Shown here: in pieces, positions 16,506 through 29,093 of the stretch | Layout of the letters: the number at the start of each line of letters is the position of its first letter | Position numbering within the stretch: position 1 is the stretch's first letter | Source: Chloroflexota bacterium | GTDB taxonomy: Bacteria; Chloroflexota; Dormibacteria; Dormibacterales; Dormibacteraceae | Direction: 5' to 3' | NCBI GenBank assembly: GCA_005882135.1 | Contig: VBDR01000034.1 | Location: 1-52,768 of the forward strand | Length of the DNA stretch: 52,768 bases | The notes under the pieces: model-generated | Seen by the model: the letters and a program-made list of their open reading frames with translations, nothing else | Told to the model about the DNA's origin: nothing | Database searches by the model: none | Made by a program: the position numbers and the translations under genes

Positions 16506-17199
16506 AATAGACATGCACCTCGTCGTGGGTTGCGACGGCTGACCGGACCTCGTCGACCCACGGGCGTAGCGAAGCCGCGGAATAGCCGCGCCGCAAACGA
16601 AAATAAGCGACGGAGCCCAGGTCGACCAGCGGGGCCCGCGGCCACTTCGCCTCATCGGTGACCACGAGCGCGCCGCCGTGCTCGCGGATGACCCCGTACG
16701 TCTCCTCGTCGAACCAGGACTCGTGGCGGAATTCCGCGGCGGCGGGCCGGCCGAGTGCCGACAGCAGCGAATCGAGCAGCAGGATGTTCTGCTGCCGCGC
16801 GGGTGGGAACTGCAGGAGGACCGGCCCCAACCGCTCGCCAAGGACGGCGATGCGCCGGGTGAAGATGCTTGCCAGCCCAACCCGGTCGAAGCCCTCGGCA
16901 GAATAGGTCAGGCCCCGATTCGCCTTCATGCAGAAGCGAAAGCCGGGTGGCGTGTCGCTCGCCCATTTGAGCAGGGTCGACTCGGGCGGCGTCCGGTAAA
17001 AGCTCCCGTTCAGCTCGACGCCGGTCAGTTTTTGCGCGTAGTAGTCGAGCATCCTGGCCCCGGCCAGCGCCGGCGGGTAGAACTTGCCCTTCCACGTTGC
17101 ATAGCTGAACCCAGACGTCCCGGTATAGAGCGTTGGCTCAGACTCCGGCGGTCTGGCGACTGCGCATGACGCGTTCGTGCAGCTGCCCGCAAGCCGCAT
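16429..17199 (-). CDS. DUF72 (YecE-like) TIM-barrel protein
   Basis: 256 residues from the ATG at 17199; a GTG at 17214 is also in frame. LYTGTSGFSYATWKGKFYP and YAQKLTGVELNGSFYRTP are hallmark DUF72 segments, followed by FCMKANRGLTY, GPVLLQFPP and VAYFRLRRG. The biochemical role of the family is not settled. The gene overlaps rlmN by about 62 bp upstream and lgt by 77 bp at its 3' end. The real conserved core begins only around residue 22, so part of the overlap may be untranslated. Confidence 0.88.
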   Translation of the reverse strand: MRLAGSCTNASCAVARPPESEPTLYTGTSGFSYATWKGKFYPPALAGARMLDYYAQKLTGVELNGSFYRTPPESTLLKWASDTPPGFRFCMKANRGLTYSAEGFDRVGLASIFTRRIAVLGERLGPVLLQFPPARQQNILLLDSLLSALGRPAAAEFRHESWFDEETYGVIREHGGALVVTDEAKWPRAPLVDLGSVAYFRLRRGYSAASLRPWVDEVRSAVATHDEVHVYFKHDSGSPALAQRLLRLAGKEPVRR

Positions 17200-18193
17200 C
17201 CGCCTCCCGCCCACGAGTGTCGCGGACGGTCACGTTCAAGCCCTGGGCTTCGATCATATCTTTGAAGGCACGGATGGACGCCCGATCCGGAGCGCGATAC
17301 GGCGTGTCCTCGACCGGGTTGAACGGAATCAGGTTGACGTGCGCCAGCTTGCCCTTCAGCAGCGCGCCCAGCTCCCTCGCGTCGCGCTCCGACTGATTGA
17401 CACCGGCGAGCATCACCCATTCGTAGCTGACACGGCGCCCCGTCCTGTCCGCGTACGCCTGCGCCGTGTCGACCAGGTCGCGCACGGGGTACTTGCGGTT
17501 GATCGGCACCAGCACGTCACGCAGCTCGTCGCGCGCCGCATGGAGGGAGATCGCGAGGGTGACTGGAATTTTTTCCTCGCCGAGCTGGGTGATGCGCGGG
17601 ATCAGGCCGCTGGTCGAGACCACGATCCGGCGCGGGCTGATGCCGAGGAGGTCGGGGTCGGCGAGCCTGCGCACCGAATCGACCACGGCGTGGTAGTTCG
17701 CCATCGGCTCGCCCATGCCCATGAAGACGACATGCGAGAGGCGGCGGCCCTCCTGCGCGAGGACGCGCGCCGCGTCGACCGCCTGCTCCACGATCTCGTG
17801 TGCCTTCAGGTTGCGCCCAAACGGGAACTTGCCGGTCGCGCAAAACGGACAGCCGATCGGACAACCAGCCTGCGAGGAGATGCAAAGCGTGGAGCGGTCT
17901 GCGTAGCGCATGACGACCGCCTCCACCGAGTGGCCGCCGTCGAGCTCGAAGAGGGTCTTGGTGGTGAGACCGCGGTCGGCCTCCGAGACCGCGATCGGCC
18001 GGAGCGAGGTCGCACGAAAGGCGGTGTCGAGCGCACCCCGCAACGCCTTCGGCACGTCAACCATGGCCTCAAAGGTGGTGGCCCCACGAGCGAGCCAATC
18101 CCAGATCTGCTTGCGCCGATAGGTGGGCGCGCCGTGATCGGCGAGCCATTGCTCGAGCTCGGTCGCGGACAGGGAGAGGATCGGCGGGGCCAC
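17138..18193 (-). CDS. rlmN: 23S rRNA (adenine-2503-C2)-methyltransferase
   Basis: 351 residues from a GTG. It is a radical SAM enzyme with the 4Fe-4S cluster Cys111, Cys115 and Cys118 (CPIGCPFC), GEPMANY, VSTSGLIP and the C-terminal DTRGREADAACGQL segment, with Cys335 at the position of the methyl-carrying Cys. It methylates A2503 of 23S rRNA and often also A37 of some tRNAs. It lies 5 bp after the MBL hydrolase gene on the same strand. Confidence 0.95.
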   Translation of the reverse strand: MAPPILSLSATELEQWLADHGAPTYRRKQIWDWLARGATTFEAMVDVPKALRGALDTAFRATSLRPIAVSEADRGLTTKTLFELDGGHSVEAVVMRYADRSTLCISSQAGCPIGCPFCATGKFPFGRNLKAHEIVEQAVDAARVLAQEGRRLSHVVFMGMGEPMANYHAVVDSVRRLADPDLLGISPRRIVVSTSGLIPRITQLGEEKIPVTLAISLHAARDELRDVLVPINRKYPVRDLVDTAQAYADRTGRRVSYEWVMLAGVNQSERDARELGALLKGKLAHVNLIPFNPVEDTPYRAPDRASIRAFKDMIEAQGLNVTVRDTRGREADAACGQLHERVMRSRQTAGV

Positions 18194-18198
18194 CGCGC

Positions 18199-18957
18199 CT
18201 AGATTACCGACGCTTCGTAGACCTCACCGCGCTCGCGCACCACGCCGTCGTCGACCAGCTTGCGCAGGTGCGCGCGGAGCGTCATCTCGGCCGCGACCAT
18301 CAGCCTGTCGTCCAGGTCGCCGTATACGCGCCGGGTCAGGTCAGTCGGGGTGCCGGCGCCGCGCCTCACCTCGGCCAGCACCTGCGCCTCGCGTTCGAGT
18401 CGGTGCCGGCGGTACTCGTCGATCTTCGCCATCGCCTCCGTCACAGGATCCCAATGCCCGGGAAAAAGGATCTGCGGTTCAAGGGAGGCCAGGCGATCGA
18501 GCGAGTGCAGGTAGGCGGCGACGTCGCCCTCGGGGTAGGTGACCATCGAGCTGCCCTGGCCGAGGATCAGGTCGCCGGTGAAGACCGCCCGATCTTCCGC
18601 GATGAGGAAGCAGAGGTGGTCGGCGCTGTGTCCGGGCGTGTACAGGGCGGTGAGGTTAAGCGCGCCGGCGCGGACGATCTCACCGTCGCGCAGCTCCGGA
18701 TATCGCTGCACGGAAGCGTGGTGGGGAGCGGCAAATCGCTCGGCGAGGGGAAGGTGGTCCGGATGCCCGTGTGTGACGAGCACCACCGCGACCGTCTTGC
18801 CCGCGAGGCGCTTGTCGAGCGCATCGAGATGAGCATCGTCGTCGGGGCCGGGGTCGATCACGGCGACGACCGGCCCGCCGTCCACGATCCAGGTGTTGGT
18901 CCCAGGCCCCGTGTAAGGACCGGGGTTCGGAGCCACGACCCGGCTGACTAAAGCCAC
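18199..18957 (-). CDS. MBL-fold metallo-hydrolase, LACTB2-like, with C-terminal winged helix
   Basis: 252 residues. The metal-binding motif THGHPDHL is complete, followed by YTPGHSADHLCF, FTGDLILG and FPGHWDP, giving the His/Asp set for two zinc ions. Residues about 205-252 form a winged-helix-like tail (AHLRKLVDDGVVRERG). LACTB2-type enzymes act on RNA or thioesters; the substrate here is not evident. First gene of a pair with rlmN. Confidence 0.88.
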   Translation of the reverse strand: MALVSRVVAPNPGPYTGPGTNTWIVDGGPVVAVIDPGPDDDAHLDALDKRLAGKTVAVVLVTHGHPDHLPLAERFAAPHHASVQRYPELRDGEIVRAGALNLTALYTPGHSADHLCFLIAEDRAVFTGDLILGQGSSMVTYPEGDVAAYLHSLDRLASLEPQILFPGHWDPVTEAMAKIDEYRRHRLEREAQVLAEVRRGAGTPTDLTRRVYGDLDDRLMVAAEMTLRAHLRKLVDDGVVRERGEVYEASVI

Positions 18958-18985: not shown

Positions 18986-19729
18986 TCAACGCGAGCGATA
19001 GGCCGGCAGGTAGATGTCGGCGCCGTCGGGCCTGCTGGCGTCCAGCCAGCCGTCGAGCTGGGTGTCCACGATGAGCCGGACGAGCGGTTCGCCCAGCTCG
19101 GGGACGCCCTGGGCGTTCGCTTCGCCGGTCGCGGTGACGTGGATCTTCCACCAGGAGCCCAGGGGCTCCGCCGCGATGCTGAGCGAGCTCCCCAGCCAAT
19201 CGCGCGCGCGGGTGAAGGCTTCGACCAGCGCCGGCTCCGAACCGAGCACCGCGGCGTCCGGGGGCAGGTCCTGCGCCGCGGTCGGCAATGCCAGGTTCAG
19301 CACCGCGCCGAGCACGACGCCCCGCGCGCTGTCCTTCGGCTCGACCGCCGCCGCCTCGAGGGCCGCGGCGCGCCGTCCAACCTCCTGGGCCTGCTCGAAC
19401 AGCCCCTCGAGCAGCTCGGGACGGCCGAATGCGGCCTGGCGGGCCGATTCCTGGAGGGCGAGCACCGACGATCGGAGCTTGTGGCCGAGGCGCGCCAGGA
19501 GGTAGTCGCGCTGCTCGTGGGCCAGGCGCTGCCCGATCTCGGCGCTCTGTCTCGCGACACGCAGCCCGCCGTGCTCGGCCCAGCCCACCAGGCGGCCGTT
19601 CAGGAGGAGCGCCTCCCAGGGTCCGCCGGGCGGCGGAAAGTCGGTGTCGGCGGGGCCGTGGCGAAGGTGATCGGGAACCGACTCCATCCCGCCGCCGACC
19701 CGAACCCAGATCGGCGCCGTGGCGCTCAT
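18986..19729 (-). CDS. Degenerate histidine-kinase-like protein, possible Spo0B/ChpT-type phosphotransferase
   Basis: 247 residues from the ATG at 19729; a TTG at 19747, one base after the kinase stop, is also possible. Residues 60-125 form a long helical region containing LLARLGHKLRSSVLALQ, which aligns with the H-box of a HisKA dimerisation domain with His83 as candidate phosphoacceptor, but with Lys where kinases have Glu. The C-terminal half (about 135-247) has the length and pattern of a HATPase domain but lacks the N-box Asn and the DxGxG and GxGxG motifs, so it should not bind ATP. This is what Spo0B and ChpT look like. It follows the multi-GAF kinase directly. Alternatively it is an inactive kinase or an antagonist. 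Confidence 0.72.
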   Translation of the reverse strand: MSATAPIWVRVGGGMESVPDHLRHGPADTDFPPPGGPWEALLLNGRLVGWAEHGGLRVARQSAEIGQRLAHEQRDYLLARLGHKLRSSVLALQESARQAAFGRPELLEGLFEQAQEVGRRAAALEAAAVEPKDSARGVVLGAVLNLALPTAAQDLPPDAAVLGSEPALVEAFTRARDWLGSSLSIAAEPLGSWWKIHVTATGEANAQGVPELGEPLVRLIVDTQLDGWLDASRPDGADIYLPAYRSR

Positions 19730-19747
19730 AAAGCCGTCTAACGGCAA

Positions 19748-22700
19748 CTAGGTGCGAATCCGGGCAGGAACCGTGAATCTAAATGTCGTTCCGCGGCGAT
19801 CGCTCGCCGCGACCCAGATCCGGCCGCCGAACGAGCGCTCGACGACCAGCCTGCAGAGGTAGAGGCCGAGGCCGAGGCCTCCCTGCGAGCGGCTGCGACC
19901 TGCCGGGCCCGTCTTTTCGAACACGGTTTCGAGGGTCGCCGCGGGCAGACCCTGCCCGCTGTCGGAAACGGTGATCTCGAGCCATCCCCGCTGGACCTGC
20001 CGGGCCTCGACCAGCACCGCCCCCGACGTGTACTCGAGCGCGTTGCCGATCAGGTTGGTCAGCACCTGGCCGAGGTGGGCCGGCTCGCAAAAAGCCGGCG
20101 GCAGCGCCTCGGGCAGGTTGACCCGCACCGCCGCGGTCCGCTCCGCGTAGCGGTGATTCAGGACGGCGAGCACCCCTCCCATCGCGGAGGCGAGGTCGAC
20201 CGGTTCCGGCGCCGGCTCGAAGTGCCGCGTCTCGAGCTTGGCGATGATCAGCTGGCTTTCGACCAGGCTGAGCAGGCGGTCCGAGGACTCGTAGGCCTCC
20301 TGCAGCAGGGTCCGGCGCCCCGTGGAGTCGATCGTCTCGTCCCACTGCATGATCCCGGCCAGCGTGTTCTTCATCGCGGCCGCCGGGCTGCGCACCTCAT
20401 GCCCGATCGCGCGCAGCATCAGGTCCTTTGCTTCCAGGGCCTGCCGCTGCGCGGTGACATCCTCGTGCAGGGTCAGCACGCCGGCCGGCTCGCCCTCGAG
20501 TCCCGGGATGACGACCCGCCGGACGTGGACGGTGCGGTCGGGATCCTTCATCCGCAGCTCCAGGGTGCCTTCGGCGTCGGCGTCCTCGGCGGGCGCGGCG
20601 CCGGCGGCGGCGAAGACCTCGTCGGGCGTGCGGCCTGGCATCTCGGAGGCCTGGAGGCTGTAGATGGATTCGATCTCCGGGTTGGCGTAAACGATGCGCC
20701 CGGCGGCGTCCTCCAGCATCACGCCGACCGGCGAGTGGCGAAGGATCGCGTTCATCATCCGGCGCTCGCGGTCGAGGGCGTCGACGAGCTCGAGCTGGCC
20801 GAGCAGGACGGCTGCCTGGCCGGCGAGCACCGCAGAGAGCCGGCGGGTCTCCGCGGCGCCCGACGTCATCCGCGCCACCAGCAACCCCGCGAACCTGCCT
20901 TCGACCTGGATCGGGATGGCGAAGGCGTCTTGCGGAGCGCCCAGCAGGTCGAGCAGCGCGCGTAGGCGGCGACCTCCAGCCGTCGACGTGAGGGCGCGCA
21001 GCAGCTGGGCGCTGTCGGTGACCGGCACCTTCGGCGAGACGTCGCCGTCGTCTGACCGCCGCACCAGCTCGCCGTCTTCCAGGAGCCACAGCTCACCCTG
21101 CGAGCCGGCGAGGGCGCGGCTGACGAGGCGAGCCATCTCCGAGCGGGCGCGGTCGGGTTCGGTCGGCGTCAGCTCGGTGAAGGCGGCGACCGCTTCGAGC
21201 GTTCGGATCCGGCCGCGAGTCTCGGCCACGAGCCGGGCGTTCTCGATGGCGACCGCCGCGTGGCGCGCAAAGTCAAGGGCGGCCGCGCTTGGCTCGGCGA
21301 CCAGCGTCGAGGCATGGACCGCGCCGATCGCGCCCACCAGGCGGTCGCCATACCAGAGCGGGATCAGGTTCCACGCGAAGTCGTGAGCGGTGCCGCTGAT
21401 GATGCCCGCCGGCGGCACCCGGTCGTCGGAGCTCAGCCCGGCCCAGCCCAGCACCTCTTCGGCCGGCGTATCGCCGCTGCCGCGCGTGGCGGTCACACGG
21501 CCATCGGTGTCGAACGCCCAGCACGCGGTACCGGCGCACTCGAGCATGGTTCGCGCCTGGTCGGCGATGTTGGCGACCACGCTCATCAGCTCGTGGCCGG
21601 CCAGCGCGGCCAGCTCCTGGATGCGCACCGACTGCGCGAGGGCCAGCTCGTTGGCGTGGTGCAGCCGCATGGTGCGCAAGGCGATCCCGACCACCGGCAT
21701 GGCTGCCTCGAGCAATTTCAGATGCGTGGCCTGGAAGCGTGCGCCGTCGTTGCGCATCACCACCAGGCCGGCGACGACGCGGTCGTTCTGCGTGATCGGG
21801 GCCCACGCGACGTGGCTGGGCGAGCGCGTGAAGACATAGCTCCCGATCGGGCCGGCAAGGTCTCCCGGCTCGGGCACCACGGCTTCGACCACCTCGGTGC
21901 CGCCTTCGATCATGCGGCGGAAGAAAGGCGCGCCTTCGATGGCGACCGGACCGATGAGGGTCGTCTCCTCGCCGCTAGCACCCGCGAATCCCGCCACCAG
22001 GCCGGCCACGTCGACGTACGCGAGCACCGTGTGGGTCGAGCCAAGATAGTCGGCCACCACCGAGAAAACCGCTTCGGCGAGCTGGCGCTCATCCGATGCG
22101 CTGGCCACGCCCATCTCGAGGACGTGAAGGGCTTCCAGGCGCGCCCGCTCGGTCTGCGCCTGAGCGAAGTGATCGGCGTTGGCGAGGGCCAGGCTTACAT
22201 GCGCGGCCACATCCTGCAGCAGCTTCACGTGCCAGTCGTCGAATGCGCCCTCCGTGTAGGACTGCAGTGAAAGCATGGCGGTGATGCGCTCCCCGCTGAG
22301 CACCGGCACCCAGACGAAGGAGCGGGACACCCGCCGCTGGTCGGAGGGCGGGCCGGAGACGAACACGGCCGCGCCCTGGCCGACAGTCCAGACCTCGCGC
22401 TCGAGGGTTTTGCCCTCGAAAGAGCGCGCCCAGGGCGACTTGCGCACGAGCACCGGTTTGCTGGTCTCGTAGGCCTCGCGCGAGGGACCGGTGACGGCCA
22501 GCGCGACGGGCGGCACGACCTCTTCTACGCCGCCCACGTACTGGTAACCCTCGGCCAGCGGCCCCTCGGGAGTCTGGGTGATGGTGGCGAGGATGAACCC
22601 GTCGAAGCTCAGGTTCGCAGACAGCTCCTCGCGCAGCGTGCGCATGATCGACCATCGGTCGAGGCTCGAGGCCAGCCGTCGGCCGACCGAGTTGACGACC

Positions 22701-23773
22701 TCCAGCCGCCGCCGCTGGTCTTCGATCGCCTCGTAGCTGCGTGCGTTGCGCAGGGCGAGGGTGACCTCATCGGAAACGAGCTCCAGGAAGGCCGCCGTCG
22801 AGTCTTCGTACGCGTAAGGGCGCGAGCATTTGATGCCCAGCGCGCCCCTCGCGGCGCCGCCCTCTTTCAGCGGCACCCAGAGCGACGAGTGCGGGTGGTG
22901 CACGAGGACTCGCTTGTTCTCGCCGACGACGTCGCGCGCGGTGGCCGCCAGCGGCGAACGCGCGGGAAGCGAACGCGAGGTGAGAACAGCGTCGCCTTCC
23001 ATGTGCAGGTAGCGCGCCCGGTCGGCGCCATCCTGAAGGGTGATCATCTCGAGGGCGTCGACAGGGAGCAGCTCCCGCAACGTGCCATAGAGGCCGGTGA
23101 GAACGCTGGTCTCGTCCAGGGTGGAGGTCATCGCGCGGGCAATGCTGTTCAGCGCCTCCAGGCGCCGGGCCTGGTTGCGTGTGAGCTCGTTGAGCGATGC
23201 ATTGGCCAGCAGCACCCCGAGCCTGCGGTGCACGTCTTCGAGGAACTGCAGCTCCACCGTCGGCACCCGGCGCTTGCGATAGGTGTGATACGCGACGCTG
23301 CCGATGACCTCGCCCTGGTGCATGACCGGGACCCAGATCACGAGCTTGCTGCGGACGCGGGCGCCGGGGCCCTTGCCGACCTCCTGCCGCGCCGACTCGA
23401 CTGGCAGGACGGTGGTCTTCGGGTTCGAGTACTGGCGCGCGAAGGTCGACTCGCGCACCGGCCGGCGACGCACGTCCTGCAGCACGCCGGCGTCCATGGG
23501 CAACGAGTGGTACCAGCCCTGTCGTTCCAGGACCTGCAGGTTGATGGCGTCGTAACCGAACCTCGCCCCCAGCCCCCGATAAAGGACCTGGACCAGGTCC
23601 GCTTCGGTGACGCAGCTGCTCAGCTCGTGGACCAACGCGGCCGCCGACGGGCCTGACGATTTGCTGACGGCCAGGGTTCTGAGCGCGGGCTTCGCCCCCC
23701 TCAAAGGTGGCTTGACCGTCGCCGCCGAGGCATGCGACCTGCCGTTACGCCGGGCTGGAGTGGCCATTGCCAC
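19748..23773 (-). CDS. Large soluble multi-GAF/PAS sensor histidine kinase
   Basis: 1341 residues from a GTG, with an ATG two codons later. There is no membrane segment, so it is a cytoplasmic sensor. By pattern there are about five or six GAF-type modules (roughly 45-195, 205-350, 360-540, 550-710, 720-865, 875-1015), then a PAS domain (about 1020-1110; MLEDAAGRIVYANPEIESIY). HisKA follows with His1125 in AIGHEVRSP, and a HATPase domain with N-box Asn1244 (NLIGNALEY), DSGQGLP (about 1271) and GGLGLGLYLCR (about 1299). All catalytic motifs are intact. The repeated GAF modules could read small molecules, redox state or light; no chromophore Cys stands out. It is divergent by 24 bp from the lone receiver. 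Confidence 0.93.
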   Translation of the reverse strand: MAMATPARRNGRSHASAATVKPPLRGAKPALRTLAVSKSSGPSAAALVHELSSCVTEADLVQVLYRGLGARFGYDAINLQVLERQGWYHSLPMDAGVLQDVRRRPVRESTFARQYSNPKTTVLPVESARQEVGKGPGARVRSKLVIWVPVMHQGEVIGSVAYHTYRKRRVPTVELQFLEDVHRRLGVLLANASLNELTRNQARRLEALNSIARAMTSTLDETSVLTGLYGTLRELLPVDALEMITLQDGADRARYLHMEGDAVLTSRSLPARSPLAATARDVVGENKRVLVHHPHSSLWVPLKEGGAARGALGIKCSRPYAYEDSTAAFLELVSDEVTLALRNARSYEAIEDQRRRLEVVNSVGRRLASSLDRWSIMRTLREELSANLSFDGFILATITQTPEGPLAEGYQYVGGVEEVVPPVALAVTGPSREAYETSKPVLVRKSPWARSFEGKTLEREVWTVGQGAAVFVSGPPSDQRRVSRSFVWVPVLSGERITAMLSLQSYTEGAFDDWHVKLLQDVAAHVSLALANADHFAQAQTERARLEALHVLEMGVASASDERQLAEAVFSVVADYLGSTHTVLAYVDVAGLVAGFAGASGEETTLIGPVAIEGAPFFRRMIEGGTEVVEAVVPEPGDLAGPIGSYVFTRSPSHVAWAPITQNDRVVAGLVVMRNDGARFQATHLKLLEAAMPVVGIALRTMRLHHANELALAQSVRIQELAALAGHELMSVVANIADQARTMLECAGTACWAFDTDGRVTATRGSGDTPAEEVLGWAGLSSDDRVPPAGIISGTAHDFAWNLIPLWYGDRLVGAIGAVHASTLVAEPSAAALDFARHAAVAIENARLVAETRGRIRTLEAVAAFTELTPTEPDRARSEMARLVSRALAGSQGELWLLEDGELVRRSDDGDVSPKVPVTDSAQLLRALTSTAGGRRLRALLDLLGAPQDAFAIPIQVEGRFAGLLVARMTSGAAETRRLSAVLAGQAAVLLGQLELVDALDRERRMMNAILRHSPVGVMLEDAAGRIVYANPEIESIYSLQASEMPGRTPDEVFAAAGAAPAEDADAEGTLELRMKDPDRTVHVRRVVIPGLEGEPAGVLTLHEDVTAQRQALEAKDLMLRAIGHEVRSPAAAMKNTLAGIMQWDETIDSTGRRTLLQEAYESSDRLLSLVESQLIIAKLETRHFEPAPEPVDLASAMGGVLAVLNHRYAERTAAVRVNLPEALPPAFCEPAHLGQVLTNLIGNALEYTSGAVLVEARQVQRGWLEITVSDSGQGLPAATLETVFEKTGPAGRSRSQGGLGLGLYLCRLVVERSFGGRIWVAASDRRGTTFRFTVPARIRT

Positions 23774-23776
23774 CGA

Positions 23777-23782
23777 TATACT
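23777..23782 (+). promoter_or_regulatory. Candidate -10 box TATACT between kinase and receiver
   Basis: TATACT lies 15 bases before the GTG of the lone receiver, which would put the transcript start within about 8 bases of the start codon. There is no good -35. Only 24 bp separate the two divergent start codons, so the kinase promoter must overlap or lie inside the receiver gene. Confidence 0.3.
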
Positions 23783-23797
23783 GCCCCAGAAACTTAC

Positions 23798-24232
23798 GTG
23801 CCGTTCACCCCGCCGAAGCCAATTGCGCCCACACCCGAAGAATTGCGGGGCTCAACCGTGCTCGTGGTAGACGATGAGCGCGCGTGGCGGGTGATCCTCG
23901 AGACCGACCTCAAGATGCTCGGCTACAGGGTCTCGATGGCGGAGGATGCCGACCAGGCGCTCGTCCGGGCGCAGGCGGACAAACCCGAGGTCGCGATCAT
24001 CGACCTCATGCTCCCCGAGCCGATGGACGGTTGGGGATTGCTGAACGAGCTGCGGGCCCGCGGGCAGAAGGTGCCTGTCATCTTCTACACCGCCTACCCC
24101 GTTTTCCCCTCGGGCACCGACGATCCGGACGTCGTCGGCTACATGAGCAAAGCGATCGATCGGGCGGATCTGTACGCCCTTTTGCCGGTCGCCATCCGGC
24201 GCTCACGCGAGCGCCGAGATGCAGATTCTTAG
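23798..24232 (+). CDS. Single-domain response regulator (Spo0F/CheY-like receiver)
   Basis: 144 residues from the GTG at 23798. The frame is open further upstream, but that part overlaps the kinase start and is not protein-like. An 18-residue Pro-rich N-terminus precedes one receiver domain: acidic pair Asp25-Asp26 (VLVVDDE), phosphoacceptor Asp69 (IIDLML), Thr98 (FYTAY) and Lys118 (YMSKA) are all present, so it should be phosphorylated. There is no output domain. Placed head to head with the kinase, it fits an intermediate phosphate carrier. Confidence 0.9.
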   Translation: MPFTPPKPIAPTPEELRGSTVLVVDDERAWRVILETDLKMLGYRVSMAEDADQALVRAQADKPEVAIIDLMLPEPMDGWGLLNELRARGQKVPVIFYTAYPVFPSGTDDPDVVGYMSKAIDRADLYALLPVAIRRSRERRDADS

Positions 24233-24236
24233 TGGC

Positions 24237-24350
24237 TTACCAGTCGAGACTCGAGAAGGCGTCGACCCACTGCGCGCCAGCGGCGAGCGCGAGTGCACCA
24301 AGCACGAGCAACGCGACGACCACACCCTGGATCTTGAATCGCCAAGTCAT
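24237..24350 (-). CDS. Very small single-span membrane protein (37 aa)
   Basis: ATG at 24350, TAA at 24237. The protein starts MTWRFKIQG, then a strong helix of about 20 hydrophobic residues (VVVALLVLGALALAAGA), then a short WVDAFSSLDW tail. The positive N-terminus and acidic C-terminus predict an inside-to-outside single span. GGGG lies both 1 and about 13 bases upstream. It lies between the lone receiver (convergent) and the AT-rich promoter region of the OmpR-type gene. Only its size and context support it; it has no recognised homologue. Confidence 0.5.
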   Translation of the reverse strand: MTWRFKIQGVVVALLVLGALALAAGAQWVDAFSSLDW

Positions 24351-24471
24351 CCCCAATTTACCCCTTTGTTTTTCCAACTACGCTAAGTCCGGCCCAAAGT
24401 ATGACGAAATCCGGACGTATTTGATCATTCAAGTTTAATCAATTCTCGTTAATAATGATATAGGACAGGTC
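24351..24471. promoter_or_regulatory. AT-rich divergent promoter region with inverted repeats
   Basis: This is the most AT-rich stretch of the signalling block. It contains GTCCGG (24387-24392) and CCGGAC (24411-24416) as a 6-bp inverted repeat with an 18-bp spacer, TTGAT (24421-24425) with ATCAA (24438-24442), and AT-rich hexamers (TTAATAATGATATAG, from 24449) just before the OmpR-type gene. It would serve the regulator operon rightward and the 37-residue protein leftward. The repeats may be operators, perhaps for autoregulation. Confidence 0.45.
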
Positions 24472-25272
24472 TTGGAAAACCGAAGCATTCGACATGGATC
24501 GGGCAACGGCGCAAGGCGCGAGGTCCGGCTGCCGCCGCTGCCGCCGGGGCTCGAGGTCTACCGTCCGGTCGATGTTCTCGGCTCCTCCGTCCTCGTGGTG
24601 GAGGACGAGGCCGCGATGCTGCAGCAGCTCCGGATCGACCTGCACGATCTCGGTTACCGACCTTCGGTAGCCGCGAATGTGCCGGAAGCGCGCAACGTCC
24701 TCGAGCATGAGCGGGTCGCGGCTGTGCTCCTCGATCTCGTGCTGGACGAGCACGAGGACTCGGGGTTCGAGCTGTTGACCTGGATCCGTCAACACCATCC
24801 CGGGCTGCCCGTGATCGTCCTCTCGGCGGCGCAGGTGAACTCGGCCGCCATCCGCCGGGCCTACGAGCTGGGCGCCAGCTCGTACTTCGTCAAGGGCAAC
24901 GTGCCGATGGCGCACATCTACTCCGACCTCGCCGCGCGCCTGGTCGAGCGGGGCACCGGGCGGCCCGGGAGCTATCGCTTCGGGCGCCTCGAGTTCGATC
25001 CCACCCGCCGCACCGTAAAGGTGGGCGAGCGTGACGTCCGCCTTACCCAGCAGCAGGCCGCGCTGGTCCTGTTCCTCGCCCAGGGCTCGAAACCGGCGAC
25101 CGCCCGCGACCTGATCCATGCCGGCCTCTTCCGCAACAACGCGGCCCACTCGACGGTGCACTCCGCGCTCCTCACCCTGCGGCGCCGCCTCGACGAGCTC
25201 GAGCCAGGGCTGGGGGCGACCTTCGTTCGTGCCTCGGCCCGCGGGTACAGCCTGGTCGCCATTCATGAGTGA
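24472..25272 (+). CDS. OmpR/PhoB-type response regulator
   Basis: 266 residues from a TTG with AGGA six bases upstream. A 35-residue N-terminal extension precedes the receiver: Glu44-Asp45 (VVEDE), phosphoacceptor Asp88 (LLDLVL), Ser118 (VLSAA) and Lys141 (YFVKG). Residues about 166-266 form a winged-helix DNA-binding domain (YRFGRLEFDPTRRTVKVG, then VHSALLTLRRRLDE and RASARGYSLV). All phosphorylation residues are present. It heads a tight rightward run with M20, DUF5317-like, FtsH-like and transglycosylase genes, and would be the output of the neighbouring kinase system. Confidence 0.92.
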   Translation: MENRSIRHGSGNGARREVRLPPLPPGLEVYRPVDVLGSSVLVVEDEAAMLQQLRIDLHDLGYRPSVAANVPEARNVLEHERVAAVLLDLVLDEHEDSGFELLTWIRQHHPGLPVIVLSAAQVNSAAIRRAYELGASSYFVKGNVPMAHIYSDLAARLVERGTGRPGSYRFGRLEFDPTRRTVKVGERDVRLTQQQAALVLFLAQGSKPATARDLIHAGLFRNNAAHSTVHSALLTLRRRLDELEPGLGATFVRASARGYSLVAIHE

Positions 25273-26449
25273 GGAGCACGCGACCACACCGCTGCCGAGC
25301 AAGTCGGTCCTCGACGACGTGGTCGACCTGCGCCGCCACTTCCACAAGCATCCGGAGATCAGCTTCAGCGAGCACGAGACGACGCTCTACCTGAAGGAGC
25401 GGCTGCGCGAGCTGGGCGTCGACCTGGAAAGCGGACCGACGGAGACAGGTGCGGTCGCGCTGCTAGACACGGGCCGGCCAGGCAAAACGGTGATGCTGCG
25501 CGCCGATATCGACGCGCTTCCGATTCAAGAAGAGTCGGGCGTCGACTTTCAATCTCGCATCGACGGCCGCATGCACGCGTGCGGACATGACGCGCACATG
25601 GCGATCATGATCGGCGTCGCGCGCACGCTGATCGACCGCATCTCGGACCTCGGCGGCAAGTACCTGTTCGTCTTTCAGCCGGCCGAGGAGATCGTCGAGG
25701 GCGCGAAGGCGATGATCGCGCGAGGCCTGCTCGACGACCACCGACCCGATGCGGTCATCGGCCTCCACATCGTGAGCTTCATGGAGTCCGGCACAGTCAT
25801 CTCCAGGCCTGGCTTGATGTGGTCGGGCTCGGATGCCTTCGACGTCAGCTTCTCCGGCCCAGGCGGGCATGGCGGGATGATGGGGCGGCGCGGCAACGTG
25901 CTCGCCGCGCAGGCTTTCTTCGTCGAGCGTCTGCATACCGTCGTGGAAGGTCTCGAGCACGAAGGTGTGCAGTGCCACACGACGATCGGCAACATCAGCA
26001 GCGACGGGGCGTGGAACATCGTGCCCCGGGGGGTGCTCGTCCAGGGCAGCCTGCGCACGTTCAACGACGAATTGCGAGAGCAGGCCCTCGACCGAATGCG
26101 CGACCTGCTGCGCGAGGCCCAAAGCGAATTCGAGGTCCAATCGAACCTCGAGCTCGTCCATGGCACGGTGCCCTTGATGAACGCACCCAATGTGACGCGC
26201 ACTGTGATGGAGGTCGGGCAGGAGCTCATCGGCGACCGGGCGAGCGTGCTTGGCCGGCCACTGACGGTGAGCGATGACTTCGCCGAGTTCCTCACCCGCA
26301 TCCCGGGGTGCTACTTCATGCTGGGCGCGCGGCCTGAAGGCGACACGCCGCCCGCGCATCACTCGCCGGGGTTTCGCATCGACGAGGCCGCCCTGCCGGT
26401 GGGTGTGAAAGTGCTCGCGGGAGCCGCGTCTCGACTCGCCGCCGAATAG
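25265..26449 (+). CDS. M20D family amidohydrolase/peptidase
   Basis: 394 residues from the ATG at 25265, overlapping the regulator's 3' end by 8 bp. Metal-site features are Cys106 and His108 in HACGHDAH, Glu141-Glu142 in PAEE, His168 in GLHIV and a C-terminal His in HHSPGF. These are the hallmarks of the IAA-amino acid/N-acyl-amino acid amidohydrolase group (HipO, AmaA, DapE-like). It would remove an acyl group from an amino acid or open a small cell-wall-type amide; the substrate is unknown. The close coupling to the regulator is notable. Confidence 0.92.
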   Translation: MSEEHATTPLPSKSVLDDVVDLRRHFHKHPEISFSEHETTLYLKERLRELGVDLESGPTETGAVALLDTGRPGKTVMLRADIDALPIQEESGVDFQSRIDGRMHACGHDAHMAIMIGVARTLIDRISDLGGKYLFVFQPAEEIVEGAKAMIARGLLDDHRPDAVIGLHIVSFMESGTVISRPGLMWSGSDAFDVSFSGPGGHGGMMGRRGNVLAAQAFFVERLHTVVEGLEHEGVQCHTTIGNISSDGAWNIVPRGVLVQGSLRTFNDELREQALDRMRDLLREAQSEFEVQSNLELVHGTVPLMNAPNVTRTVMEVGQELIGDRASVLGRPLTVSDDFAEFLTRIPGCYFMLGARPEGDTPPAHHSPGFRIDEAALPVGVKVLAGAASRLAAE

Positions 26450-26455
26450 ACCCTC

Positions 26456-26977
26456 ATGCTGTGGTTGTTTGCGATCGTGGCCGGCCTCCTCTTCGGCCTG
26501 GTCGTCGGCGGCCGCATCGGCAACCTGGCGCGGCTGCGATTTCGCTGGCCCTGGCTGATCCTCGCCGCGGTGGTGGTGCGAGAAGCCGTCGCTCTCACGC
26601 CACTCAATCGCGTCCCCGGCGCGCAGTACCTCTACGTCGTCTCGCTGGCGGCGATCGTCGCCTGGACGATCTGGAACTTCAGCCGCTTCTACGGAATCTG
26701 GCTGATCACGGCCGGCGCCGCGCTCAACCTCGTGGTGATCACGGTCAACGGAGGCCGCATGCCGGTGGCGCCGGAGTTCGCCGGCTCCCTGGTCCGGCAC
26801 GGGAGCTCCGGTCAGTACACGGTCATGGGATCGGCGACCCACCTCAACCTGTTGGGCGACTGGATCTCGCTCTACCCGGTGCCCGAGGCGTACAGCCTCG
26901 GCGATGTGCTGATCGCGATCGGGCTGGCGATCCTGGTCTTTGTCTCGACCGCAACCCCAACCCGTATAGTGGATTGA
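26456..26977 (+). CDS. DUF5317-like membrane protein
   Basis: 173 residues with about five membrane helices (roughly 3-21, 33-50, 58-76, 78-96, 145-165). The segment VITVNGGRMPVAPEFAG followed by HLNLLGDWI matches the pattern I associate with DUF5317 proteins. Function unknown. It is 6 bp after the M20 gene and 7 bp before the FtsH-like gene, so it is part of the same transcript. Confidence 0.78.
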   Translation: MLWLFAIVAGLLFGLVVGGRIGNLARLRFRWPWLILAAVVVREAVALTPLNRVPGAQYLYVVSLAAIVAWTIWNFSRFYGIWLITAGAALNLVVITVNGGRMPVAPEFAGSLVRHGSSGQYTVMGSATHLNLLGDWISLYPVPEAYSLGDVLIAIGLAILVFVSTATPTRIVD

Positions 26978-26984
26978 CCCCGCC

Positions 26985-29093
26985 GTGATCATCTTCTGGA
27001 TCTTGACCCTGTTCGTCGGCGCCTCCGCGTTCGCGTTCGCGCTGATCGCACTCCAACTCGGCCTCGCGTGGTCCTTGGTGTACGCAATCGTCGCGATGCT
27101 TGTTTGCCGCGGAGTTCTCACGCTGCTGAAACGTTGGCTGATCCTCAGTGAGCGCATCGCACCTGAGAACGACCCTGATGAGCGAACCCTCGAAACCAAC
27201 CGGGCTTTGTTCTGGCGCCGGATGCGGAGCTTGGCGATCCTCTTCGGAATCTACTTCGGTGTTTTCTTTTTGTTCTACGGCCTGAGTCCGCTGGAAGCGA
27301 TGGACGCGTTACCCGGCGTCATTGCCGCCGCCATACCCCAACTTGCGTATTTCCTGGTGATCATGGTGGCCAACTTCATGCTGTTCTTCGGGGCCTTCTT
27401 CATCTACGGGCGTATCGGACGCAACTATGTGGATCCGGGAGAGGCCAACTACGAGGTCAAGATCGAAGACGTGCGCGGCCAGAAGTCGGCGGTCGAGGAG
27501 ATGCGCCGGATCCTGACATTGATGGAGCAGGGCCGGAACTACGTGCGCGCGGGTGGGAAGCGCGAGCGCGGCGTCCTCATGGTCGGCCCTCCAGGCACCG
27601 GCAAGACGATGCTGGCCAAAGGCATCGCGTCGTCGATGCACGTGCCGATCATCATCACTTCGGGCTCGTCCTTTCAGGGCATGTTCCTCGGCATGGACGC
27701 GCTCAACGTTTTCATGACGGTGCGGGCCGCGAAGAGCCGCGCCAAGCGCTGGGGTGGAAGCATCGTCTTCATCGACGAGTTCGATGCCCTCGGCAATCGC
27801 CGCAGCGGGATGAGCGGCGGCGGGGCGGGTGGCATGGGTGGGATGTTTGGTGGAGGCCAGCTCGGTCTCAACACGCTGCTCGTGATGATGGACGGCGTCG
27901 ACAACCCCGGCTATTTCAAGCAGATGGGCCGGCGGATGGTGAACATCACGCTGGATGGGCTCTTCTTGCCCAGGCAGATCGGAGTGAACGGCTCGAAGAT
28001 CAAGCTTCGCGTCCCGATCCTCCGTGCGCCTCGCTACAACATCCTCTTTGTCGGCGCGACGAACCGGCCGCAGGTCCTCGACGAGGCGGTCGTTCGTCCG
28101 GGCCGGTTTGGTCGCCAGATCATCTTCCGGATGCCGACGAAAGACGACCGCAAGGACATCGCGGATCTTTACTTTGCGAAGAAGAGGCACGATCCCGAGC
28201 TGGACACGCCCGCTCGGCGCGATGAGTTCGCGCGCGTCGCCGATGGTTACTCGCCGGCCATGATCGAGCAGGCGCTCTCCCTCGCGCTGATGTACGCGTT
28301 CGAAGACAACCGCGACGCTTTCACTTGGCGCGACATTCGCGAGGCGATGGGCAACATCGAGGCCGGCCTTGCGCACCCCGTCGTGTACACGGAGCGCGAA
28401 CGCGTCGCGGTCGCCCGCCACGAGCTGGGCCACGCGGTCGCGGCGCGATATTTCTTGCCCGACGCGGTATCGGTGCGACTCTCGATCCGAATGCGATCAG
28501 GATCGCTGGGCCATCACCGCGCTGTGGACAAGGAAGAAGAGTTCTCCAAGTTCAGGTCGCATGCCGCCGGTGAGCTGCGCCATGGTCTCGGAGCGATCGC
28601 ATCCGAACGTGTCTTTTATGGCGAGAACTCGACCGGCGTGAGCATGGACCTCATCCAGTCGACGGACCTCGCGTCGAGGATGATCGTGAACTGGGGCATG
28701 GGGCCTGACCCGCTGCCGCCGCACGTCTCGCGCCTTGCGGTCAGCATCGGCGAGTACCTGATCTCGATGGCGGCCTCCGTGCAGAGCGAGCTGACCGGCG
28801 AAGCAAGCCCCGCCGCGAAGGCCATGCAGAATCCGCGATCCCGTCAGGCAGTCGCCCAGGTTTTAGGCTCGGCATACATCGACGATTGGCGCGTGATGAA
28901 CGTGAACAAAGAGGCGATCGACCTGGCGGCCGAGGCGCTGATGGCGCAGGGCGAGCTGGTCGGAGACGAGATCGGCGGCCTCCTCGACTCGGTAGGGCTC
29001 CGGGAACCGAATGAGAAGGACCCGTATCCGGCCGAGATCCCGCTGCCGCCGGTGCTCGAGCCGCTCAAGATCGAAGCGGAGCAGACGGCCTGA
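26985..29093 (+). CDS. Atypical FtsH-like membrane AAA+ zinc protease
   Basis: 702 residues from a GTG. There are four membrane helices in two pairs (about 3-27, 30-50, 83-103, 118-142) where FtsH has two. The AAA module has Walker A GPPGTGKT (201-208), Walker B IVFIDEFDALG (260-270) and the arginine fingers in RPGRFGR (371-377). The M41 protease site is intact: HELGH (479-483) and third ligand Asp555 (GVSMDLIQST). Odd points: the pore loop reads FQGMFLG where FtsH has FVEMFVG; a Gly/Met-rich loop (276-291) and about 45 extra residues (306-352) lie between Walker B and the SRH segment. It would extract and degrade membrane proteins, perhaps special ones. Confidence 0.88.
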   Translation: MIIFWILTLFVGASAFAFALIALQLGLAWSLVYAIVAMLVCRGVLTLLKRWLILSERIAPENDPDERTLETNRALFWRRMRSLAILFGIYFGVFFLFYGLSPLEAMDALPGVIAAAIPQLAYFLVIMVANFMLFFGAFFIYGRIGRNYVDPGEANYEVKIEDVRGQKSAVEEMRRILTLMEQGRNYVRAGGKRERGVLMVGPPGTGKTMLAKGIASSMHVPIIITSGSSFQGMFLGMDALNVFMTVRAAKSRAKRWGGSIVFIDEFDALGNRRSGMSGGGAGGMGGMFGGGQLGLNTLLVMMDGVDNPGYFKQMGRRMVNITLDGLFLPRQIGVNGSKIKLRVPILRAPRYNILFVGATNRPQVLDEAVVRPGRFGRQIIFRMPTKDDRKDIADLYFAKKRHDPELDTPARRDEFARVADGYSPAMIEQALSLALMYAFEDNRDAFTWRDIREAMGNIEAGLAHPVVYTERERVAVARHELGHAVAARYFLPDAVSVRLSIRMRSGSLGHHRAVDKEEEFSKFRSHAAGELRHGLGAIASERVFYGENSTGVSMDLIQSTDLASRMIVNWGMGPDPLPPHVSRLAVSIGEYLISMAASVQSELTGEASPAAKAMQNPRSRQAVAQVLGSAYIDDWRVMNVNKEAIDLAAEALMAQGELVGDEIGGLLDSVGLREPNEKDPYPAEIPLPPVLEPLKIEAEQTA

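Follow-up and report, generated by a model that had tools for sequence, protein, structure and literature searches.

A 6.3 kb locus in DNA of a Chloroflexota bacterium of the family Dormibacteraceae (assembly GCA_005882135.1, contig VBDR01000034.1) carries four signalling genes that may together form a phosphorelay. The window, i.e. the whole stretch of DNA analysed, is 52,768 nucleotides long, and its open reading frame list has all four genes where an earlier note, made from the letters alone, had placed them. A histidine kinase (HK), followed by a kinase-like protein that lacks ATP-binding boxes (HPT), lies on the minus strand; a stand-alone receiver (REC) and an OmpR-type regulator (OMPR) lie on the plus strand. 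The genome is 2.7 Mb in size and 85% complete, and the locus contig is C33. HK, REC, HPT and OMPR, in this order, probably constitute a four-step His-Asp-His-Asp phosphorelay; from the sequences, the chance that this reading is correct is put at about three in four. The genes and the residues on which the argument turns are the following.

19748 to 23773, minus strand: HK, a soluble-looking kinase of 1341 amino acids with GAF units, PAS, HisKA and HATPase.
20399 to 20401, minus strand: codon of HK His1125 (35/35 orthologues).
18986 to 19729, minus strand: HPT, a degenerate kinase-like protein and proposed histidine phosphotransferase, 247 amino acids from ATG or 253 from a TTG at 19747.
19481 to 19483, minus strand: codon of the proposed phospho-His of HPT, His89 in the 253-residue frame and His83 in the 247-residue frame (37/37 orthologues), paired by hhalign with HK His1125.
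23798 to 24232, plus strand: REC, a stand-alone receiver of 144 amino acids from GTG, proposed intermediary receiver.
24002 to 24004, plus strand: codon of the REC phospho-acceptor Asp69 (32/32).
24083 to 24097, plus strand: FxTAY segment of REC, F96 to Y100, which resembles the FATGUY or CckA FxSGY motif (PMC9981736).
24472 to 25272, plus strand: OMPR, a receiver with an OmpR-type winged helix, 266 amino acids from TTG (start uncertain), proposed terminal regulator.
24733 to 24735, plus strand: codon of the OMPR phospho-acceptor Asp88 (33/33).

The two ends of the proposed chain are conventional. HK matches HATPase in Pfam with 86 bits, a PAS domain that sits before the kinase core, and GAF units, with HisKA slightly below its cut-off. 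Its H, N, D and G boxes had been described as intact, and the key residues are indeed invariant in 35/35 aligned orthologues: His1125-Glu1126 of the H-box, Asn1240/1244, Asp1271-x-Gly1273-x-Gly1275 and Gly1299-x-Gly1301-x-Gly1303. The six GAF domains assigned to it in the earlier note stand only in part, as two stretches score above Pfam cut-offs, three are weakly GAF-like and the sixth matches nothing. No receiver domain was found within HK by Pfam; a carrier from HK to HPT would thus be needed, and REC is the local candidate. OMPR shows the pattern of the OmpR family, with the acidic pocket, Asp and Lys intact and a winged helix. Asp88 is identical in 33/33 aligned orthologues, and the protein can be aligned almost end to end with structurally solved members of the OmpR family, such as KdpE over residues 38 to 261 of 266, in keeping with the intact receiver and DNA-binding domain first attributed to it. 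An OmpR-type DNA-binding domain is absent from the Pfam list for OMPR at E ≤ 1.

What is left of a kinase in HPT? Its orthologue set numbers 37, the protein itself included, at 53–83% identity to it, and a scan of named genome contigs with HPT gave 22 relatives at 69–83% identity. His89, the residue singled out in the earlier note as His83, is identical throughout the set (37/37) within the box RLGHKLRS and is the sole invariant His of the protein. It is followed by Lys90 in 37/37, whereas in HK the residue after the phospho-His is Glu in 35/35. In a single comparison, hhalign aligned 175 columns of the HPT profile to the core of HK (probability 89, E 2.2e-6), with His on His and the segment PELGEPL of HPT on the kinase G2 region; the residues of the N-box, D-box and G-box are lost in HPT. 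Without these boxes HPT, by its sequence, could not charge itself from ATP. Family searches with HPT gave no match in Pfam at E ≤ 1 or in NCBIfam at E ≤ 0.1, and 15 members searched against Pfam at E ≤ 1 gave no ChpT, Spo0B, HATPase or Hpt family match. The best PDB hits by sequence, with E values of 0.41 and 2, are unrelated proteins.

The AlphaFold model of HPT, a monomer model of medium confidence, has a small beta domain, then helices 62–106 and 110–134 arranged as a DHp hairpin, and then an alpha/beta domain that is Bergerat-like. Foldseek gave 68 matches with E values of 0.001 or lower. Among the best 50 of these are histidine kinases and, at ranks 13, 35, 39 and 45, ChpT structures (4fpp, 4fmt and 4qpj), the top one at rank 13 with an E value of 5.7e-5; Spo0B is not among these 50. 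The DHp-type fold predicted for the small protein is thus present in the model. HPT is, on alignment and model, a putatively kinase-derived protein with a conserved candidate phospho-acceptor His and without ATP-binding boxes. The same description applies to ChpT, presented in PMC3433190 as a worn-down kinase with a DHp hairpin and a Bergerat domain that does not bind ATP.

Could HPT instead be a pseudokinase which, without carrying phosphate itself, acts on OMPR by sequestration or dephosphorylation? PhyT of Sphingomonas melonis has a dual role, sequestration of PhyR as well as phosphate transfer (PMC5898713), and the conserved N-terminal domain of HPT would suit such a protein. But the RLGHKLRS box, with its His kept in every orthologue, would be needless for mere binding, and the co-retention of REC, which is unlinked in one genus described below, would be left unexplained; a purely sequestering or dephosphorylating HPT is quite improbable. 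Two other assignments were rejected: that of an active kinase, as HPT has no HATPase match and has lost its N, D and G box residues, and that of a classical Hpt domain (PF01627), as HPT has no Pfam match. At E ≤ 0.01 no PF01627 domain was found in the genome, at its 85% completeness; Hpt-domain proteins are present in three of nine genomes tested, each within an open frame of 773–866 codons. As a separate observation, residues 13–57 of HPT (19577 to 19711, minus strand) form a strongly conserved N-terminal beta domain without a family match. No such domain was found in the descriptions of ChpT consulted.

REC was compared over an alignment of 32 sequences, with residues numbered from the GTG start. 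Asp25, Asp26, Asp69 and Lys118 are identical in 32/32 and Thr98 in 31/32, with Ser once, so that the five active-site residues listed in the earlier note are conserved with this single substitution. After strand beta4 comes F96-x-T98-A99-Y100, with F, T and Y each in 31/32 and A in 32/32. This FxTAY sequence fits an F-x-[ST]-[GA]-Y-like pattern, with Ala in place of Gly. In the model of REC (pLDDT 88.6) helix alpha4 is absent between beta4 (94–98) and beta5 (112–117). According to PMC9981736, an FxSGY or FATGUY motif together with a missing or disordered alpha4 occurs in the intermediary receivers CckA-Rec, SdrG and Sma0114, and the meaning of the FATGUY motif is called unresolved by the authors of that paper. 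Among 30 Response_reg matches in the genome, 29 of them testable with a crude pattern, REC alone has an FxTAY-like motif. REC resembles intermediary receivers, as judged by the motif and by the helix missing from its model.

The motif alone cannot fix the position of REC in a relay. CpdR, a terminal receiver under ChpT, carries a similar FATGUY-like motif (PMC9981736), and this gives some footing to a branched or reversed flow in which HPT would split phosphate between OMPR and REC, with REC a terminal output or a drain as CpdR is. HK would then lack its carrier to HPT, for which REC is the candidate at hand, and a flow of this kind is highly improbable. REC was also considered as a fragment of HK, which was rejected, as it is a separate gene on the opposite strand. 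The REC and OMPR receivers are not mutual nearest relatives in their genome, contrary to what a partner common to both might lead one to expect, REC being slightly closer to five others; in a separate ranking of the receivers of this genome against REC, OMPR came fifth with the query itself counted. A second REC-like gene, 56% identical to REC and with the motif FYSAH, was seen in one of the related genomes (G029, L069 8891 to 9775).

Between REC and OMPR lies a further reading frame that is missing from the earlier note.

24237 to 24350, minus strand: small open reading frame of 37 amino acids with a single predicted hydrophobic helix.

The frame has 37 codons, starts with MTW and encodes one hydrophobic stretch; it was found in 28/32 loci by a start-and-length pattern. 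Over its first 28 codons, 27 comparisons with the copy in the window gave 247, 126 and 377 differences at codon positions 1, 2 and 3, as against 372, 370 and 348 in an upstream control, which is ungapped and crude. This codon-position bias favours translation of the frame. When 61 genomes were searched with a profile, it was found in 28, all within the family set described below (28 of the 37 genomes of that set that were searched); the matches in G006, G012 and G023 are weak, and extra weak matches occur elsewhere in G000 and G001. In G006 the frame looks interrupted. It was not found in genus g5, in the three most diverged loci (G027, G029 and G036) or in the four genomes in which the relay set was not detected. 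The pattern of conservation marks the frame as a predicted fifth conserved gene of the locus, and its peptide may be a target of the relay or may modulate it.

Do the four genes travel together? All four are present in 37 of the 42 genomes of the family set (f1), none was detected in four, and in one the locus is truncated where its contig stops, and thus the co-occurrence looked for in related genomes is found. In the 37 HPT-positive genomes, HK, REC and OMPR were each found, at the locus or on another contig. Outside the family, HPT was found in 0/59 genomes of the same class, and among 400 genomes drawn from the phylum, with six candidates scored per genome, it was present in 21, all of them of the family. 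At the thresholds used, none of the four genes was detected in G021, G025, G028 and G034 (84, 94, 59 and 94% complete), where kinase matches span the PAS and kinase core only. The contig-end case, G040, has HK, REC and a partial OMPR on a contig of 5119 bases that ends 109 bases past HK, so that any HPT would lie beyond view. Not counted were an OMPR-like match in G064 and REC-like matches in G057 and G059, at 30–35% identity.

The four genes are adjacent outside genus g5, and their shared loss may therefore count as few events. The scattered arrangement in g5 (G020 and G032) is more telling than the linked loci, though it is one genus. There OMPR and HPT are neighbours in divergent orientation, and two other contigs carry REC and a shortened HK. 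The g5 REC is 45–46% identical to REC, the unlinked copy in G020 having FYSAAY, and the g5 HK orthologue (L113 4414 to 7350; L114) matches HK residues 45–533 and 995–1338, without the part from about 534 to 994.

These arrangements bear on the simplest alternative, direct two-component signalling from HK to OMPR, in which REC would compete for phosphate or act as a sink for it and HPT would be a helper or phosphatase. HK and OMPR are each canonical, and because the active sites of both receivers are intact, HK could use either. Yet the H-box of HPT is fully conserved though ATP binding is lost, the neighbour that OMPR retains in g5 is HPT and not HK, and REC shows features of the intermediary type. 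Direct signalling is unlikely. The intact catalytic sites, the carrier-like REC and the retention of HPT beside OMPR point to HK-REC-HPT-OMPR as the best reading, which draws on the conserved catalytic residues, the HPT fold, the REC features and the all-or-none occurrence of the four genes.

How would such a relay work? The GAF and PAS units of HK would sense a signal that is probably cytoplasmic, and His1125 would become autophosphorylated. The phosphoryl group would pass from His1125 to Asp69 of REC, acting as a carrier rather than as an output. HPT, a presumed former histidine kinase that would no longer bind ATP, would accept it on His89 and transfer it to Asp88 of OMPR, which would then bind DNA. 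We infer each phosphotransfer step and its direction, and likewise the signal and the targets.

Several observations weigh against the phosphorelay. The invariance of His89 is unexceptional by itself, as a diverse 15-row alignment of HPT has 55 invariant columns, which include the N-terminal stretch 14–56 and the C-terminal PELGEPL segment. The HPT model is only of medium quality (pLDDT 62.4, pTM 0.56), the five models span 46–62, and the input alignment had 23 rows, each of at least 70% identity. TM-scores of the HPT matches are about 0.3–0.5. As the HPT fold fits ordinary kinases equally well, the fold alone is no proof of a phosphotransferase. REC, for its part, retains Tyr115 in beta5 of the canonical Y-T coupling (30/32), unlike MrrA-type proteins, so that the MrrA-type loss of the beta5 aromatic residue is not seen. 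Among the 50 fold matches listed for REC, the best are OmpR-type receivers (PhoP, VicR), and SdrG and CckA are absent.

Where would OMPR bind? Its own promoter region would probably be one of its binding places on the DNA. Two short motifs near the starts of genes are conserved at the locus.

24441 to 24463, plus strand: AT-rich block with a repeat of about 10 bp, candidate OMPR site or promoter (regex match, 26/32 loci).
23777 to 23782, plus strand: TATACT, candidate -10 box for REC (29/32 loci, at most 150 nucleotides upstream of REC).

The AT-rich block as OMPR site or promoter, and TATACT as a -10 box, are offered as suggestions only. No second copy of the AT-rich block was found in the genome with up to three mismatches, and with only this copy found no OMPR regulon can be proposed. 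At this locus TATACT lies 15 nucleotides from the start of REC; seen from HK, on the opposite strand, it immediately precedes the start codon. The HK and REC start codons diverge and are 24 bases apart, with the conserved TATACT between them (23771 to 23798); an overlapping or bidirectional promoter that yields nearly leaderless mRNAs is possible there. There are exactly two copies of the sequence TTGGAAAA in the window, one at 24368 to 24377 upstream of the small open reading frame and one at 24472 to 24479 at the TTG start of OMPR, each copy oriented along its respective gene. The true start of OMPR may lie further downstream than the annotated TTG.

The flanks of the locus (17138 to 18957, minus strand, and 25265 to 29093, plus strand) encode RlmN, a metallo-beta-lactamase-fold protein, an M20 peptidase, a small membrane protein and an FtsH-like AAA protein. 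These genes, from RlmN through the FtsH-like AAA protein, are retained as neighbours in most of the 36 relay loci compared. A tRNA scan of the whole window found zero tRNAs.

A broader interpretation is tentative, and its chances fall somewhat short of even. The relay could have evolved independently, as a further conversion of a kinase to a phosphotransferase beside Spo0B, ChpT and PhyT; REC could have become FATGUY-like by convergence and lost alpha4, both traits being a general signature of intermediary receivers; and the 37-residue membrane peptide could be a feedback or signal part. If so, phosphorelays built with worn-down kinases have a further origin, beyond those in Firmicutes and Alphaproteobacteria. 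A distant phylum that has the FxTAY motif and lacks alpha4 would then allow a test of what the FATGUY motif does, the question that PMC9981736 leaves open. Regulators with this motif have been proposed to have evolved in alphaproteobacteria as hubs (PMC5964349), a proposal to which a FATGUY-like receiver from another class would be relevant. Since all the relay parts share one locus in most genomes examined, the wiring would be readable from sequence. For these rarely cultured soil bacteria, the relay would also offer a first regulatory system open to testing. No account of a phosphorelay in Dormibacterota was found in the open-licence literature, subscription papers being mostly outside this scope.

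In the Spo0 phosphorelay of Bacillus, which governs sporulation, phosphate passes from KinA or KinB to Spo0F, Spo0B and Spo0A. The locus described here has a kinase, a stand-alone receiver, a proposed kinase-derived phosphotransferase and a DNA-binding regulator in equal order. It differs from Spo0 in that HPT has no Pfam match to any Spo0B family, the output is OmpR-type and not Spo0A-type, and the parts lie together in most genomes examined. Spo0B is dimeric according to PMC3433190.

With the CckA-ChpT-CtrA relay of Caulobacter, a cell-cycle control system, it shares the match of the HPT model to ChpT structures and an OmpR-type output, CtrA being OmpR-like (PMC9981736); REC, in addition, is like CckA-Rec in its FxSGY-like motif and missing alpha4. 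Unlike in that system, the receiver is separate from the kinase, and HPT carries an additional beta domain at its N-terminus and has no sequence-level match to ChpT. Because HPT lacks sequence relatives, the relay is apparently of separate origin from the known ones, as far as sequence can tell.

Closest in its layout of separate parts is Pak-SdrG-PhyT-PhyR of Sphingomonas melonis, with the separate FATGUY-type receiver SdrG and the kinase-derived phosphotransferase PhyT, which feeds a regulator (PMC5898713 and PMC5964349); PMC5898713 groups PhyT with Spo0B and ChpT as degenerate kinases. In contrast to the present locus, the Paks, which are HWE/HisKA_2 kinases, are dispersed over the genome and PhyT is membrane-bound, and PhyR, unlike OMPR, acts via a sigma factor and not as an OmpR-type DNA binder. 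The mechanism is thus known from Spo0, CckA-ChpT and Pak-SdrG-PhyT-PhyR, and the proposed Dormibacteraceae relay is a lineage-restricted variant of it.

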